Positions 5,766-60,750 of a stretch of 64,000 nucleotides of DNA are shown piece after piece (the stretch's first letter is position 1; every line of letters begins with the position of its first letter). The DNA comes from Spiroplasma endosymbiont of Asaphidion curtum (GTDB lineage Bacteria; Bacillota_I; Bacilli_A; Mycoplasmatales; Nriv7), in NCBI RefSeq assembly GCF_964031085.1, contig NZ_OZ035001.1, positions 682,001 to 746,000 of the forward strand. Reading direction: 5' to 3'. The notes beneath the pieces are model-generated. The model saw nothing but the letters and a program-made list of their open reading frames with translations. It did no database searches and was not told the origin of the DNA. The position numbers and the translations under genes are program-made.

Positions 5766-5840
5766 AGACTTGGTACATAACTATAACATTTTGCACCGAC
5801 CAAACTATAAAATTCACTTTCATCTTTATATTTATCTAAT
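5766..5840. mobile_element. 144-bp MITE, left half (split copy)
   Basis: Matches the first 75 bp of the MITE at 14318-14461. It is interrupted by the IS5 cluster 5841-8275; its other end is at 8276-8319, with roughly 25 bp lost at the break. Confidence 0.75.
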
Positions 5841-6246
5841 AGACTTCTTGCATTACTTATTTATTAAACAAAATTCCTATAAAATATATTTAAAATAGAA
5901 ATTATAAGGAATTTAAGATTATGAAATTTGATAAATTTAATTTTATTAATGATAAAGAATTATTACGATTAACTGGAATAAAGCAAAGTACTTTTAATAA
6001 AATGTTAAATATTTTAAAAGAAGCTGAGTTAAAAAAGTTTAAAAGAGGTGGTAAAAATAATAAATTATCATTAGAAAATAGATTATTGATGACTTTATCA
6101 TATTGACGAGAATATCGTACTTATTTTCATCTTGGTAAAAGTTTTGATATTAGTGAAGCTAGTTGTTATCGAAATATTAAGTGAATTGAAGATATTTTAA
6201 TCAAACATCCTGATTTTCAACAACTTGCTGGTAAAAAAGCATTAAT
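5841..6246 (+). mobile_element. IS5-family element, 5' fragment with truncated transposase
   Basis: Left terminal repeat AGACTTCTTGCATTACTTA plus the first 326 bases of the transposase gene (ATG 5921), cut where an inverted IS5 copy begins at 6247. Not functional alone. Confidence 0.85.
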
Positions 6247-7332
6247 AGACTTCTTGCATTACTTATTAAAATAATTACAAATTATTTGTAAATAAAAAAT
6301 ACTATATAATAGTAATTTCTAACTTTTATTAGGTTAATACTTATGGATTTTATTAAATGTGTAAATTTTGACACAACAAAAAATTATTTTATTATTTAAA
6401 TTTAATTTTAAATAAATATTTTATGTTATCTATAATTGCAAATTATAAATTGAAGCAATTAAATTAAATCTTAAACTAAATCGTTTTCTACGATTACGAT
6501 ATTTTTCAGTAATAATTTTAAATTTTTTAAGAATAGCAAAAATATTTTCAATAATAATTCTCATTTTTGAAATTAATTTATTATTATGTTTTTGTTCTTT
6601 ATTTAAAGGGTTTTTCTTTGTTTTTTTCTTAGGTATTAGAACATTACTATGAATTTTTTGTATTCCTTGATAACCATTATCAACTATTAATTTAGTATTT
6701 TTTAAAATTGGGATTTTTGATTCTTTAAATAAACAAAAATCATGCTTTTTACCGAGAGAAAAATTTGTTGCAATAATTATTTTGCTTTCTTTTTCAATAA
6801 TTACTTGTGTTTTAATAGTGTGTTTTTTCTTTTTTCCTGAATAAGATTGTTTTTGTCTTTTTTGGGCGTTGAATGGGTGTTTCTGTAGCATCAATAATAA
6901 TTGTTTTATCATTAAAATAATCATTTATTAATGCTTTTTTACCAGCAAGTTGTTGAAAATCAGGATGTTTGATTAAAATATCTTCAATTCACTTGATATT
7001 TCGATAACAACTAGCTTCACTAATATCAAAACTTTTACCAAGATGAAAATAAGTACGATATTCTCGTCAATATGATAAAGTCATCAATAATCTATTTTCT
7101 AATGATAATTTATTATTTTTACCACCTCTTTTAAACTTTTTTAACTCAGCTTCTTTTAAAATATTTAACATTTTATTAAAAGTACTTTGCTTTATTCCAG
7201 TTAATCGTAATAATTCTTTATCATTAATAAAATTAAATTTATCAAATTTCATAATCTTAAATTCCTTATAATTTCTATTTTAAATATATTTTATAGGAAT
7301 TTTGTTTAATAAATAAGTAATGCAAGAAGTCT
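6247..7332 (-). mobile_element. IS5-family element, complete but probably inactive copy
   Basis: 1086 bp with both terminal repeats. Two indels versus the family: three extra bases in the 3' noncoding part (near 6285) and one A missing from the frameshift run at about 6864, leaving A6 instead of A7. Confidence 0.87.
6430..7252 (-). pseudogene. IS5-family transposase, slippery run altered to A6
   Basis: N-terminal half (MKFDKFNFINDKELLRL..., HTH_Tnp_4-like) begins at 7252; C-terminal half (SYSGKKKKHTIKTQ..., DNGYQGIQ, catalytic Glu in IIENIFAILKKF) ends at 6430. In other copies a -1 shift on A7 joins them; here one A is gone, so a +1 shift would be needed and normal production should fail. 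Confidence 0.8.
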
Positions 7333-8275
7333 ATTATTTAAATTTAATTTTAAATAAATATTTTATGTTATCTATAATTGCAAATTATAAATTGAAGCAA
7401 TTAAATTAAATCTTAAACTAAATCGTTTTCTACGATTACGATATTTTTCAGTAATAATTTTAAATTTTTTAAGAATAGCAAAAATATTTTCAATAATAAT
7501 TCTCATTTTTGAAATTAATTTATTATTATGTTTTTGTTCTTTATTTAAAGGGTTTTTCTTTGTTTTTTTCTTAGGTATTAGAACATTACTATGAATTTTT
7601 TGTATTCCTTGATAACCATTATCAACTATTAATTTAGTATTTTTTAAAATTGGGATTTTTGATTCTTTAAATAAACAAAAATCATGCTTTTTACCGAGAG
7701 AAAAATTTGTTGCAATAATTATTTTGCTTTCTTTTTCAATAATTACTTGTGTTTTAATAGTGTGTTTTTTCTTTTTTCCTGAATAAGATTGTTTTTGTCT
7801 TTTTTTGGGCGTTGAATGGGTGTTTCTGTAGCATCAATAATAATTGTTTTATCATTAAAATAATCATTTATTAATGCTTTTTTACCAGCAAGTTGTTGAA
7901 AATCAGGATGTTTGATTAAAATATCTTCAATTCACTTGATATTTCGATAACAACTAGCTTCACTAATATCAAAACTTTTACCAAGATGAAAATAAGTACG
8001 ATATTCTCGTCAATATGATAAAGTCATCAATAATCTATTTTCTAATGATAATTTATTATTTTTACCACCTCTTTTAAACTTTTTTAACTCAGCTTCTTTT
8101 AAAATATTTAACATTTTATTAAAAGTACTTTGCTTTATTCCAGTTAATCGTAATAATTCTTTATCATTAATAAAATTAAATTTATCAAATTTCATAATCT
8201 TAAATTCCTTATAATTTCTATTTTAAATATATTTTATAGGAATTTTGTTTAATAAATAAGTAATGCAAGAAGTCT
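7333..8275 (-). mobile_element. IS5-family element lacking its right end
   Basis: Left terminal repeat at 8275 and the whole coding region are present, but the distal ~145 bp with the right terminal repeat is missing: it stops at the AAT-rich point where the 6247-7332 copy abuts it. Confidence 0.85.
7372..8195 (-). CDS. IS5-family transposase (two frames, -1 frameshift)
   Basis: Frame A starts at 8195 and encodes the HTH region through IIIDATETPIQRPKK; slipping -1 on the seven-A run gives RQKQSYSGKKKKHTIKTQ... and the rest of the DDE domain (DNGYQGIQ; Glu in IIENIFAILKKF), about 274 residues. The gene looks intact although the element has lost one terminus. Confidence 0.85.
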
Positions 8276-8319
8276 ATTATCAAAATAGTAGATAAAATTA
8301 AAGGTTATGTACCAAGTCT
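8276..8319. mobile_element. 144-bp MITE, right half (split copy)
   Basis: Ends GGTTATGTACCAAGTCT, the right terminus of the MITE whose left half is at 5766-5840. Confidence 0.72.
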
Positions 8320-14146: not shown

Positions 14147-14332
14147 ATGTCAAAATTTGGTATTAAAGACATTATTATGTTTTTAAAAGTTTTTGGAATT
14201 TCATCATTATTTTTTGTTGCCGGAATTGTTATTTGTCTTATAGGACATACTCATTTAAGAATTGGTTGACCGGCTTATGTGATTATTTCAGCAATGCTTA
14301 TTAGTGCCGGAATTATTAGACTTGGTACATAA
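14147..14332 (+). pseudogene. small membrane protein, C-terminus replaced by MITE
   Basis: Starts MSKFGIKDIIMFLKVFGISS after AAAGGAG; two hydrophobic helices (about residues 8-30 and 42-57). Native coding sequence runs to the MITE at 14318; the last residues (RLGT) and stop codon come from the MITE, giving 61 residues. I do not recognise the family. Its unusual leader suggests it is regulated by a ligand or by translation. Confidence 0.6.
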
Positions 14333-14461
14333 CTATAACATTTTGCACCTACCAAACTATAAAATTCACTTTCATCTTTATATTTATCTAACATTTGTGC
14401 TTCACCTAGAAAATAATATTATCAAAATAGTAGATAAAATTGAGGGTTATGTACCAAGTCT
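14318..14461. mobile_element. 144-bp MITE, intact copy
   Basis: Perfect 16-bp terminal inverted repeats AGACTTGGTACATAAC, the same ends as the second IS5-like element (25398-25794). Other full copies: 50337-50480, 51776-51919, 60607-60750. No transposase; presumably moved in trans. Confidence 0.88.
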
Positions 14462-47944: not shown

Positions 47945-48247
47945 CCTACCCTTGGAACTAATTTAATAGCGTGTATATTTTTAGGAAATCCACCCATTCA
48001 TTTTTTTATTGCAAAACGAAACAAATTGCTATAGCTAATAGGATGTTATCTATTAACTGGTAAACTTCTTTTGGTTATGGCGACCACCCACAATTTATCG
48101 TGCTTTAATACATACCAACATTATTAATTCACTTGTATTTAATTTTCAAAGAACAAATTTTTAACACCTTATAAAATAAAAAGACAATCATTGCTGACTG
48201 TCTTAATACTTATTCAAATCTTTTCCTACCTAACAAAACTTTATGCG
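47945..48247. repeat. 303-bp repeat, copy B
   Basis: Partner of 12698-13000. Here it joins the plectrovirus noncoding region to an IS30 fragment. Confidence 0.75.
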
Positions 48248-48250
48248 TCC

Positions 48251-48841
48251 TACGATTATTAACATTAATATTTCGTTCTTTAATTGATTTACCATTAAAT
48301 TTACCGCGATTTTCTTGAGATTTTCGTTTCTTACCTTTTCTTCTTAAATTTTTATTAGTAACTTTTTCAAGTAATCCAGAATAAATTCAATTGTAAATTG
48401 TTTTAAAACTAATAATTCATTCTTTATGAAAATTTTTAATTCTGCCATAAATTTGTTCAGGCGATCAATCTAATAGTAATTTTTGTTGTACATATTTTAC
48501 TAATTCTCTATTTTTAAACTTATGAAAATAAACATGTGATTGTTTTCTGTTTTCTGCTTTATTTTGTGCAATTAATGAAAAATAATGATTACTATCTTTA
48601 TTTCTATTGACTTCTCGAATAATAGTACTAATACTTCGATTAAGATTTTTAGTTATTTCACTAATTTTTACTTTAAACTTCAATTGATTCTCAATATAAA
48701 TTCTTTCATATATGCCAAGATGTTTGTAACCCATATAAAAACTCCTTGCTTTGTTTTTTCTAAAATAAACTTAGCATCATGAAATTTTTATATGAGATTT
48801 TTTGCAATTTTATTTACTTGCACTTACAAGTATAATTCAGC
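48251..48841 (-). mobile_element. IS30-family element, 5' fragment with truncated transposase
   Basis: Left end plus about 160 codons from ATG 48734; carries Ala to Thr (SEITKNLN) and Gly to Asp substitutions not seen elsewhere, so it is older than the others. Catalytic domain missing. Confidence 0.87.
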
Positions 48842-50112: not shown

Positions 50113-50186
50113 ATTATTTTTAAGTGATTTGCATTTTTAAGTGATTAATGTTAATATTTTTAAGGACAATTTAAAATTTTCATTCA

Positions 50187-50331
50187 CTTATTCTGAACTG
50201 GATATGCTAGTTTTAACCAGTAGCAACCCTTTTATTTTTAAAAGAAGGTGCTTCTAGCAGGGTAAATACCAACAATAAGGGAAGGATTATATCTAAAATA
50301 TAAAACCTTCTTTTTAGTTAAAGAAGGTTTT
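50187..50331 (+). ncRNA. SAM-I/SAM-IV-like riboswitch and terminator ahead of metK
   Basis: Visible helices: P1 CTTATT (50187-50192) with AATAAG (50274-50279); P2 ACTGG (50197-50201) with CCAGT (50217-50221); core GCAACC (50223-50228); P3 CTTTT (50229-50233) with AAAAG (50240-50244); core AAGGTGC (50245-50251); small P4 GGTA/TACC (50261-50270). P2-loop TGCTAG (50205-50210) is complementary to CTAGCA (50254-50259), the pseudoknot position of SAM-I. Terminator arms 50302-50313 and 50320-50331. An antiterminator pairing AAGGGAAGG (50277-50285) with CCTTCTTTT (50306-50314) would break P1. The k-turn of classical SAM-I is absent, so the P2 arm is short. Gene context, S-adenosylmethionine synthetase, fits feedback control. 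Confidence 0.65.
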
Positions 50332-50336
50332 ATATT

Positions 50337-50480
50337 AGACTTGGTACATAACCCTCAATTTTATCTACTATTTTGATAATATTATTTTCTAGGTGAAGCA
50401 CAAATATTAGATAAATATAAAAATGAAAGTGAATTTTATAGTTTGGTAGGTGCAAAATGTTATAGTTATGTACCAAGTCT
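50337..50480. mobile_element. 144-bp MITE between leader and metK
   Basis: Opposite orientation to the 14318 copy; ATT duplicated on both sides (50334-50336, 50481-50483). It sits just after the leader terminator and before the metK ribosome site. Confidence 0.9.
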
Positions 50481-50511
50481 ATTATTTAAATAAATATTAA
50501 TGGAGGAAAGT

Positions 50512-51663
50512 ATGAGAAAAATATTATTTACTAGTGAATCTGTTAGTGAAGGACATTCCGATAAGATTTGTGATCAAATAGCTGATGCTATTTTGGATGC
50601 TTGTTTAAAACAAGACCCGCAAACAAGACTAGCTTGTGAAGTGTTTATTACTACTAATATGGTTATTATTGGTGGCGAAATTAAATCATCAGCAATTGTA
50701 AATTATGAAGCGATTGCCAGAAAAGTTATTTGTGATATTGGTTATATTGATGAAAAAATTGGTATTAATGGTAATACTTGTCATATTCAAGTATTAATTC
50801 ATAGTCAGTCACAAGATATTATTCGTGGTGTGGAACATAATCATCAATTAGCAGCAGGCGATCAAGGAATTATTTTTGGTTATGCTACTAATGAAACTAA
50901 AACTTATATGCCATTAGCCATTCAAATTGCCCACGATTTAGTACATTTGGCTTCTTCATTAAGAAAAAATCAACAATTTAAAGATGCTCGTCCTGATATG
51001 AAATCACAAGTAACGATTGATTATACTGATTGGTTGCAACCTAAGATTGATACGATTTTAATGTCAATTCAACATCATCCTGATTATAATGAAAGTGAAT
51101 TTAAAACATTTATTCATCAAAAAATTATGTTAGTTATTGCTAAGAAATATAATTTAAATTTTGATTTTAAATTTTTGATTAATCCGACAGGAAGATTTGT
51201 TGTTGGTGGGCCTTATGGTGATACTGGATTAACAGGAAGAAAAATTATTGTGGATACTTATGGTGGATATGCTCGTAGTGGTGGTGGTGCCTTTTCTGGT
51301 AAAGATGCTACTAAGGTTGATCGGGCCGCTGCTTATATGGCAAGAAAAGTCGCTAAACATATTGTTGCTTTAAATTGGGCTGATAAATGTGAAATTCAAT
51401 TGGCATATGCTATTGGTATGAAAGAACCGATTGCTGTTTATGTTGAAACATTTAATACTGAAAAGATTGCTCTTAATATAATTAGTGGTGCTATTAGTGC
51501 TGTTTTTGATTTTTCGATGCAAGGAATGATTGATTGTTTGCAGTTAATGCAACCGATTTATCAAAAAACTACCGTTTATGGTCATTTTGGTAAAGATGAT
51601 AATTTTACTTGAGAAAAATTGGATTGTTTAGAACAATTAAAAGATTATATTAAAGATAAGTAA
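50512..51663 (+). CDS. metK: S-adenosylmethionine synthetase
   Basis: 383 residues, full length; joins methionine and ATP to S-adenosylmethionine, releasing phosphate and pyrophosphate. Motifs: SEGHSDKICDQIADAILD at the N-terminus (ATP/Mg), GDQGIIFGYATNE (about residue 115), DTYGGYARSGGGAFSGKD and KVDRAAAYMARKVAKHIV in the second half. Start: ATG 50512 follows GGAGGAAAGT; the in-frame ATG at 50500 contains the Shine-Dalgarno itself and is unlikely. Preceded by the riboswitch-like leader and a MITE; followed by its own terminator. Confidence 0.97.
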
Positions 51664-51775: not shown

Positions 51776-51919
51776 AGACTTGGTACATAACCTTTAATTT
51801 TATCTACTATTTTGATAATATTATTTCCTAGGTGAATTACAAATGTTAGATAAATACAAAGACGAAAATGAATTTTATAGTTTGGTAGGTGCAAAATGTT
51901 ATAGTTATGTACCAAGTCT
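51776..51919. mobile_element. 144-bp MITE, divergent copy
   Basis: Full 144 bp with 16-bp terminal repeats; about a dozen substitutions relative to the 50337 copy. AT on both sides. Confidence 0.87.
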
Positions 51920-52080: not shown

Positions 52081-53162
52081 GCCAAATTGTAAAGTTAAGT
52101 GCAACTAAATTATTTTTCTAACCAAATATTCGATTGGTGAAAGATAATTTAGTATTTTTCTTGGTCTTTGGTTTAAAGACAATATAAATTTATGAACTGC
52201 ATTTTTAGTAGTATTTGAAAAATTAAATTTTTTAGGAAATTTTTTTCTAATTAAACCATTAGTATTTTCATTAGTACCTCTTTGTCAAGGCGAATACGCA
52301 TTAGCAAAATAAATTTTCACATTTAAATTTTTTTCAAGTTGTTGTCAATTAGAAAATTCTTTACCCCTATCAAATGTTATAGTCTTAACAAGATTATTTG
52401 GAAGAATTGATAAATAATGGCTAATGTTTTCGTTAACAACTTTAGTAGTTCTATTTTCAACTAACATTGCTAAAGTAAATCTTGATGTTCTTTCAACTAA
52501 AATTATTAAACATGATTTACTTTTACCTCGTGATGATACTACAGTATCACCTTCTCAATGACCAACAGTTATACGATTATTAACATTAATATTTCGTTCT
52601 TTAATTGATTTACCATTAAATTTACCGCGATTTTCTTGAGATTTTCGTTTCTTACCTTTTCTTCTTAAATTTTTATTAGTAACTTTTTCAAGTAATCCAG
52701 AATAAATTCAATTGTAAATTGTTTTAAAACTAATAATTCATTCTTTATGAAAATTTTTAATTCTGCCATAAATTTGTTCAGACGATCAACCTAATAGTAA
52801 TTTTTGTTGTACATATTTTACTAATTCTCTATTTTTAAACTTATGAAAATAAACATGTGATTGTTTTCTGTTTTCTGCTTTATTTTGTGCAATTAATGAA
52901 AAATAATGATTACTATCTTTATTTCTATTGACTTCTCGAATAATAGTACTAATACTTCGATTAAGATTTTTAGCTATTTCACTAATTTTTACTTTAAACT
53001 TCAATTGATTCTCAATATAAATTCTTTCATATATGCCAAGATGTTTGTAACCCATATAAAAACTCCTTGCTTTGTTTTTTCTAAAATAAACTTAGCATCA
53101 TGAAATTTTTATATGAGATTTTTTGCAATTTTATTTACTTGCACTTACAAGTATAATTCAGC
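52081..53162 (-). mobile_element. IS30-family element, copy 9 (complete)
   Basis: 1082 bp; TTAGTT occurs close to both ends in the host gene. Confidence 0.92.
52105..53055 (-). CDS. IS30-family transposase
   Basis: 316 residues with a few substitutions (for example Glu to Lys just after NTNGLIR, and GGTTGATCGTCTG at the Pro/Glu codons). Catalytic residues kept. Confidence 0.9.
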
Positions 53163-60606: not shown

Positions 60607-60750
60607 AGACTTGGTACATAACTATAACATTTTGCGCCTACCAAACTATAAAATTCACTTTCATCTTTATATTTATCTAACATTTGTACTTCATCTAGAA
60701 AATAATATTATCAAAATAGTAGATAAAATTGAGGGTTATGTACCAAGTCT
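60607..60750. mobile_element. 144-bp MITE, intact copy
   Basis: 16-bp terminal repeats as in the other copies; flanks do not match (ACT/AAT), so one side was rearranged. Confidence 0.87.

Follow-up and report, generated by a model that had tools for sequence, protein, structure and literature searches.

A predicted SAM-I riboswitch of reduced architecture ahead of metK in a Spiroplasma endosymbiont

The metK locus and its leader

The window analyzed here is a stretch of 64,000 nt of the genome of Spiroplasma endosymbiont of Asaphidion curtum, and all positions given below are numbered within it, on the forward strand. At 50512..51663 (+) it carries metK, coding for an S-adenosylmethionine (SAM) synthetase of 383 amino acids under genetic code 4, with the Pfam domains PF00438, PF02772 and PF02773. 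The longest open reading frame of the gene begins at 50500, adjoining its own ribosome-binding site (GGAGG at 50502), and the start is likely the ATG at 50512 and not 50500. A consensus scan found no promoter on the + strand.

Ahead of the gene, on the same strand, lies an aptamer of the SAM-I type (50185..50281), in which four helices follow one another in the order P1, P2, P3 and P4, as had been read from the sequence alone in the original prediction, whose coordinates are correct. P1 is formed by CUUAUU (50187..50192) and AAUAAG (50274..50279), the last three positions of which, 50277-50279, double as part of an antiterminator. P2 (50197..50221) is a stem of 5 bp, ACUGG at 50197-50201 with CCAGU at 50217-50221, closed by a loop of 15 nt and devoid of a kink-turn. 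P3 (50222..50252) pairs 50222-50225 with 50249-50252 and continues up to the pair of 50233 with 50240, with bulges at A50226 and at the AA of 50245-50246. P4 (50261..50270) is reduced to 3 bp, GGU 50261-50263 with ACC 50268-50270, around a loop of 4 nt. Finally, a strand of the P2 loop, UGCUAG (50205..50210), can form six Watson-Crick pairs with CUAGCA (50254..50259) in the J3/4 segment, thus making a pseudoknot.

According to the Rfam alignment, P3 and its core strings, GCAACC at 50223-50228 and AAGGUGC at 50245-50251, make up the predicted ligand pocket, and these strings stand where they do in SAM-I RNAs, as predicted. The bases contacting SAM were mapped through the numbering of the Thermoanaerobacter tengcongensis aptamer; under this mapping, A6, U7, G11, C44, A45, A46, U57, G58, C59, A87 and U88 are all identical in the window. 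RNAfold, which ignores pseudoknots, gives an alternative fold of the aptamer, pairing 50188-50195 with 50258-50265, at -19.4 kcal/mol, vs. -17.2 kcal/mol when P1 and P2 are forced. This alternative may correspond to the ligand-free state, or else be an artefact of omitting the pseudoknot.

Downstream of the aptamer, an intrinsic terminator hairpin with a U-rich 3′ arm is predicted at 50297..50336 (+; -19.2 kcal/mol), its sequence being identical in the five available genomes of the genus of the window (hereafter g1). The 12-bp stem originally proposed was an underestimate: 17 pairs are predicted when the A-tract and the U-tract are included, around a GC-containing core of about 11 bp (50303-50313 with 50320-50330). 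A consensus terminator scan does not list this hairpin, probably because the U-tract sits inside the stem. The competing antiterminator using the 3′ strand of P1, which was also part of the prediction, is found at 50277..50314 (+; predicted -10.0 kcal/mol), pairing 50277-50285 with 50306-50314 and 50287-50292 with 50298-50303. It takes 50277-50279 from P1 and 50298-50314 from the 5′ arm of the terminator, and, because these segments are shared, P1 and the antiterminator are mutually exclusive, as are the antiterminator and the terminator.

Relationship to the SAM-I class

The relationship of the leader to SAM-I is supported by the covariance model. Rfam family RF00162 matches it over its full length (model positions 1-108 of 108) with 40.6 bits and an E-value of 8.4e-8, computed for a region of 601 nt against 4227 Rfam families; SAM-I is the best member of its clan at 50185-50281, the lower-scoring ones having been dropped. 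When the whole genome of 1.31 Mb is searched with RF00162, the metK leader is the sole match (E 4.5e-8). The score is nevertheless lower than the curated cut-off of 44.4, which is why a default Rfam scan misses the element. The same occurs throughout g1, where the five genomes score from 34.0 to 40.6 bits, all of them below the cut-off, and default scans of the other four likewise miss it.

The leader shares with canonical SAM-I RNAs the P1-P2-P3-P4 order, the GCAACC/GGUGC core, a pseudoknot joining the P2 loop to J3/4, the use of P1 in a terminator/antiterminator pair, and metK as a target. It differs from them in having neither kink-turn nor P2b, in its P4 of 3 bp, and in the score. Since two features of the class, the curated score and the kink-turn, are lacking, the element is filed as a SAM-I-derived variant and not as a canonical member.

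Conservation of the leader

A SAM-I element precedes metK in all five g1 genomes, one of which is that of Spiroplasma endosymbiont of Nebria riversi (NZ_CP065193). A search for related loci with the MetK protein yielded one relative. The 153 nt comprising aptamer and terminator show 0-6 differences among them (0-3.9%), whereas the four-fold degenerate sites of metK in the same genomes have diverged by 5-18%. In all ten genome pairs the leader is at least about 3-fold less diverged than these sites (3.9% vs. 12.6% in the pair where the two come closest), and the 400 bases upstream of it scarcely align.

On a broader scale, 32 distinct leaders of the spiroplasma type, from several genera, were aligned with MAFFT (alignment A1). 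This alignment shifts the pseudoknot strand between clades and was therefore used for P1, P2a and P3 only. For these helices 99.1% of the cells are paired (100% in P1), vs. 25-60% in slid controls, and 43 cells have changed on both sides, vs. 13.6 (sd 4.4) in shuffles. In particular, four of the five pairs of the P2 stem present compensatory changes across these leaders. Together, the full-length RF00162 match and this conserved structure bear out the SAM-I identity proposed originally.

The pseudoknot

The six pairs predicted between the P2 loop and the segment after GGUGC are kept in the five g1 genomes, and the comparison with the genus g39 adds one fully compensated pair: UGCUA-G/C-UAGCA in g1 vs. 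UGCUA-A/U-UAGCA in g39, where the pseudoknot in full reads (U)GCUAA(A)/(U)UUAGC(A). Furthermore, at locus L007 an A-to-G change replaces a U-A pair by U-G. Counterparts written in different letters exist in the mycoplasma-type family f8 (CAAGC/GCUUG vs. CAGGC/GCCUG).

The quantitative analysis relies on an alignment (A2) of 13 sequences from two clades, g1 and g39, with a mean column identity of 86%. The fraction of paired cells and the covariation score do exceed those of shuffles, but the covarying pairs do not (4 vs. 3.8), so that the covariation of the pseudoknot rests on few events. Hence, its case leans equally on place, length and SAM-I counterparts, as in family f8, and on the g1 covariation. 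Of the covariation that the original prediction proposed to look for among metK leaders, that of P1, P2a and P3 exceeds shuffles, and that of the pseudoknot amounts to one compensated pair. Within A2 all the pairs of P4 are also kept, one of them compensated, and a wobble variant retains pairing as well. These counts on A2 replaced a comparison of own and foreign pairings between P2 loop and J3/4, in which g1 sequences had a mean of 14.5 with their own partner and 11.1 with foreign ones, 11% of the latter being at least equal; that control was unclean, given the fortuitous pairing of P2b arms with J3/4 segments of other sequences and the sharing of the pseudoknot by related clades.

Alternative explanations

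An element that scores below threshold, without kink-turn or P2b and with a P4 of 3 bp, could be a SAM-I riboswitch in decay, i.e., one under relaxed selection in a host-associated bacterium, which would no longer sense SAM and would leave metK constitutive or limited by the terminator only. Several related genera have no recognizable aptamer at metK, and in the window strain a mobile element has inserted into the leader, both of which fit such a course. The lower divergence of the leader than of the metK four-fold sites in every genome pair speaks against it, as do the mapped bases of the pocket, which are intact and which decay would hit along with P1, and the variants of relatives, which keep their pairs by wobble. 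We regard decay as improbable. Even less weight falls on a chance resemblance in AT-rich sequence beside an ordinary terminator: helices of 5-6 bp are indeed common by chance in such a region, but E-values below 1e-7 (8.4e-8 and 4.5e-8), the same place in five genomes and compensatory changes across genera refute it, leaving a probability close to nil.

The leader had been described as SAM-I/SAM-IV-like, and membership in SAM-IV (RF00634) or SAM-I/IV (RF01725), which share the core, would account for the missing kink-turn. Moreover, P2 is undivided in SAM-I/IV (PMC6890682), as it is here, where it is not split into P2a and P2b; P4 is present in both, with the same ligand core, and SAM-IV shares with the leader the core and the P2-loop pseudoknot (PK-1). 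However, SAM-IV is devoid of P4 and possesses P5 and a second pseudoknot, PK-2, while SAM-I/IV is devoid of PK-1 (PMC6890682). The window element has P4, unlike SAM-IV, and PK-1, unlike SAM-I/IV, with neither a P5 nor a second pseudoknot being seen; because PK-1 and P4 occur together, neither class fits. In the covariance search that the prediction called for, RF00162 matched and neither RF00634 nor RF01725 had any match in the genome at E≤10. Besides, the leaders of the nearest relatives (g39) lie mostly near or above the SAM-I cut-off, unlike those of g1. As far as covariance models go, membership in these two classes is refuted, and we consider it very unlikely; the SAM-I part of the original description stands and the SAM-IV part does not.

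Very probably, the leader is a genuine riboswitch of the well-known SAM-I (S-box) class, SAM binding being predicted, and it is unusual chiefly in that it has lost the kink-turn but retains a strong pseudoknot. We hold with high confidence that it belongs to this class, with a reduced architecture, and that it would shut off metK when SAM is plentiful.

A proposed series of lost modules

A kink-turn in P2 is conserved in the published SAM-I consensus (PMC2258182); a point mutation in it, A1nC, abolishes SAM binding (PMC3651934). In the window the pseudoknot strand is preceded by AUA and followed by UUUUAA, and no tandem G.A is possible at the junction of P2. Along with the missing P2b and the short P4, this agrees with the suggestion that a short P2 without kink-turn marks a reduced variant.

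The modules of relatives were identified by visual inspection of individual sequences and of alignments. The g1 leaders have lost both kink-turn and P2b, and their pseudoknot strand lies directly in the 15-nt P2 loop. The g39 metK leaders (L027, L037, L084) share with the window element the length of P2a, the GCUA/UAGC core of the pseudoknot and the base of P3, but differ in keeping the 3′ half of the kink-turn sequence (AUGA), in a longer P2 loop and in a longer P4 region; their P2b is not conserved and their pseudoknot is long. In g13, g36, g40 and g42, kink-turn and P2b are kept, the P2 loop is A-rich, J3/4 is typically UUAAAUU, and a pseudoknot cannot be traced confidently; among the g13 loci, L001, L003, L023, L036 and others retain kink-turn and P2b and have apparently lost the P2-loop pseudoknot. 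Families f3 and f8 retain kink-turn and pseudoknot, whereas most of their sequences have no P4.

Outside the order, 40 weaker-scoring SAM-I matches of the class were also read by eye, a regular-expression search for the kink-turn being imprecise, and two of them (L157 and L176) have no kink-turn GA element. L157, which belongs to another family (51.2 bits), shares with the window element a short P2 (6 bp), a 14-nt loop, the absence of the kink-turn and a possible pseudoknot (GAAG/CUUC), and differs in its full P4 and in scoring above the cut-off; its loss of the kink-turn is probably independent. Judging from these sequences, such loss is rare, though not unique to g1.

We are inclined, with some reserve, to see in the order a natural SAM-I series, with different lineages having each lost one or another of kink-turn, pseudoknot and P4, and to propose that in g1 the pseudoknot alone orients P2, so that an aptamer with a short P2 would sense SAM without needing a kink-turn. 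The pseudoknot would then perform the work of the kink-turn. If the leader is under selection without this module, beside relatives lacking the pseudoknot or P4, the series would show which parts of SAM-I are truly needed, and compact natural aptamers of this kind could provide small constructs for structural work.

A model for the control of metK

Binding of SAM to the P1-P3 core would stabilize P1. With its 3′ strand held, the antiterminator would not be built, the hairpin at 50297-50336 would form, and transcription would end short of metK. At low SAM levels, the antiterminator (-10.0 kcal/mol) could form first in the course of transcription and metK would be transcribed. The lineage has kept the 6-bp pseudoknot of P2 loop and J3/4 and has lost kink-turn and P2b. 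The same logic appears in other letters in other families; at L013, for instance, the 3′ strand of P1, AUGAUAG, complements the 5′ arm of the terminator, CUAUCAU. A SAM-sensing OFF switch acting on metK by transcription attenuation is the best reading of the locus, SAM binding and the sign of control being what we infer from it. It would add metabolite feedback control of metK to insect symbionts, in which few regulators are known.

Mobile DNA around metK

A MITE-like mobile element of 144 bp (50337..50480, +) with perfect terminal inverted repeats of 16 bp separates the terminator from the ribosome-binding site of metK. At least 40 copies, 97-99% identical, exist in the genome, and related ones in the other four g1 genomes. 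The insertion in the metK leader is unique to the window strain, the four relatives presenting an empty site, and ATT is doubled there. The element probably owes its mobility to DDE transposases, because the same terminal repeat is found beside split DDE transposase genes (DDE_Tnp_4-type elements around 5766-8319). Its main predicted hairpin leaves the ribosome-binding site outside; since the element follows the terminator and spares this site, the switch should work despite the insertion.

The window holds copies of this element at 50337-50480, 51776-51919, 14318-14461 and 60607-60750, the first two flanking metK, and no clear target duplication is seen at the other copies. The gene is also flanked by IS30-type transposase copies on the minus strand, at 48210-48734 (HTH_38; cut short) and at 52105-53055 (HTH_38 and rve).

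Distribution in the order

The original prediction knew of no SAM riboswitch described in Spiroplasma. In the literature consulted, no paper on a SAM riboswitch of metK in Spiroplasma or Mycoplasma was found, which is not proof of absence. The element is much less isolated than this suggests: RF00162 finds SAM-I in 57 of the 320 genomes of the order, 37 of them over the cut-off and in several genera. Since the standard Rfam model finds it so widely, the presence of SAM-I in the order is unsurprising and no discovery in itself; the reduced architecture is the interesting and new part.

In the genera of the spiroplasma type that were read, nearly every SAM-I match lies ahead of metK, with L011 as the sole exception; L011 (22.5 bits) and L093 (20.5 bits) are weak matches that look like chance. 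The metK leaders of several related genera (L045, L047, L048, L049, L050, L052 and L069) have no recognizable SAM-I core, so that repeated loss or replacement of the switch is probable.

In family f8, SAM-I aptamers without P4 precede open reading frames other than metK (L013, L014, L015, L016, L017, L090 and L091). These frames span 343-372 amino acids where complete, and the one N-terminal part scanned has no clear Pfam match. One genome, G130, carries three aptamers of this type within about 10 kb.
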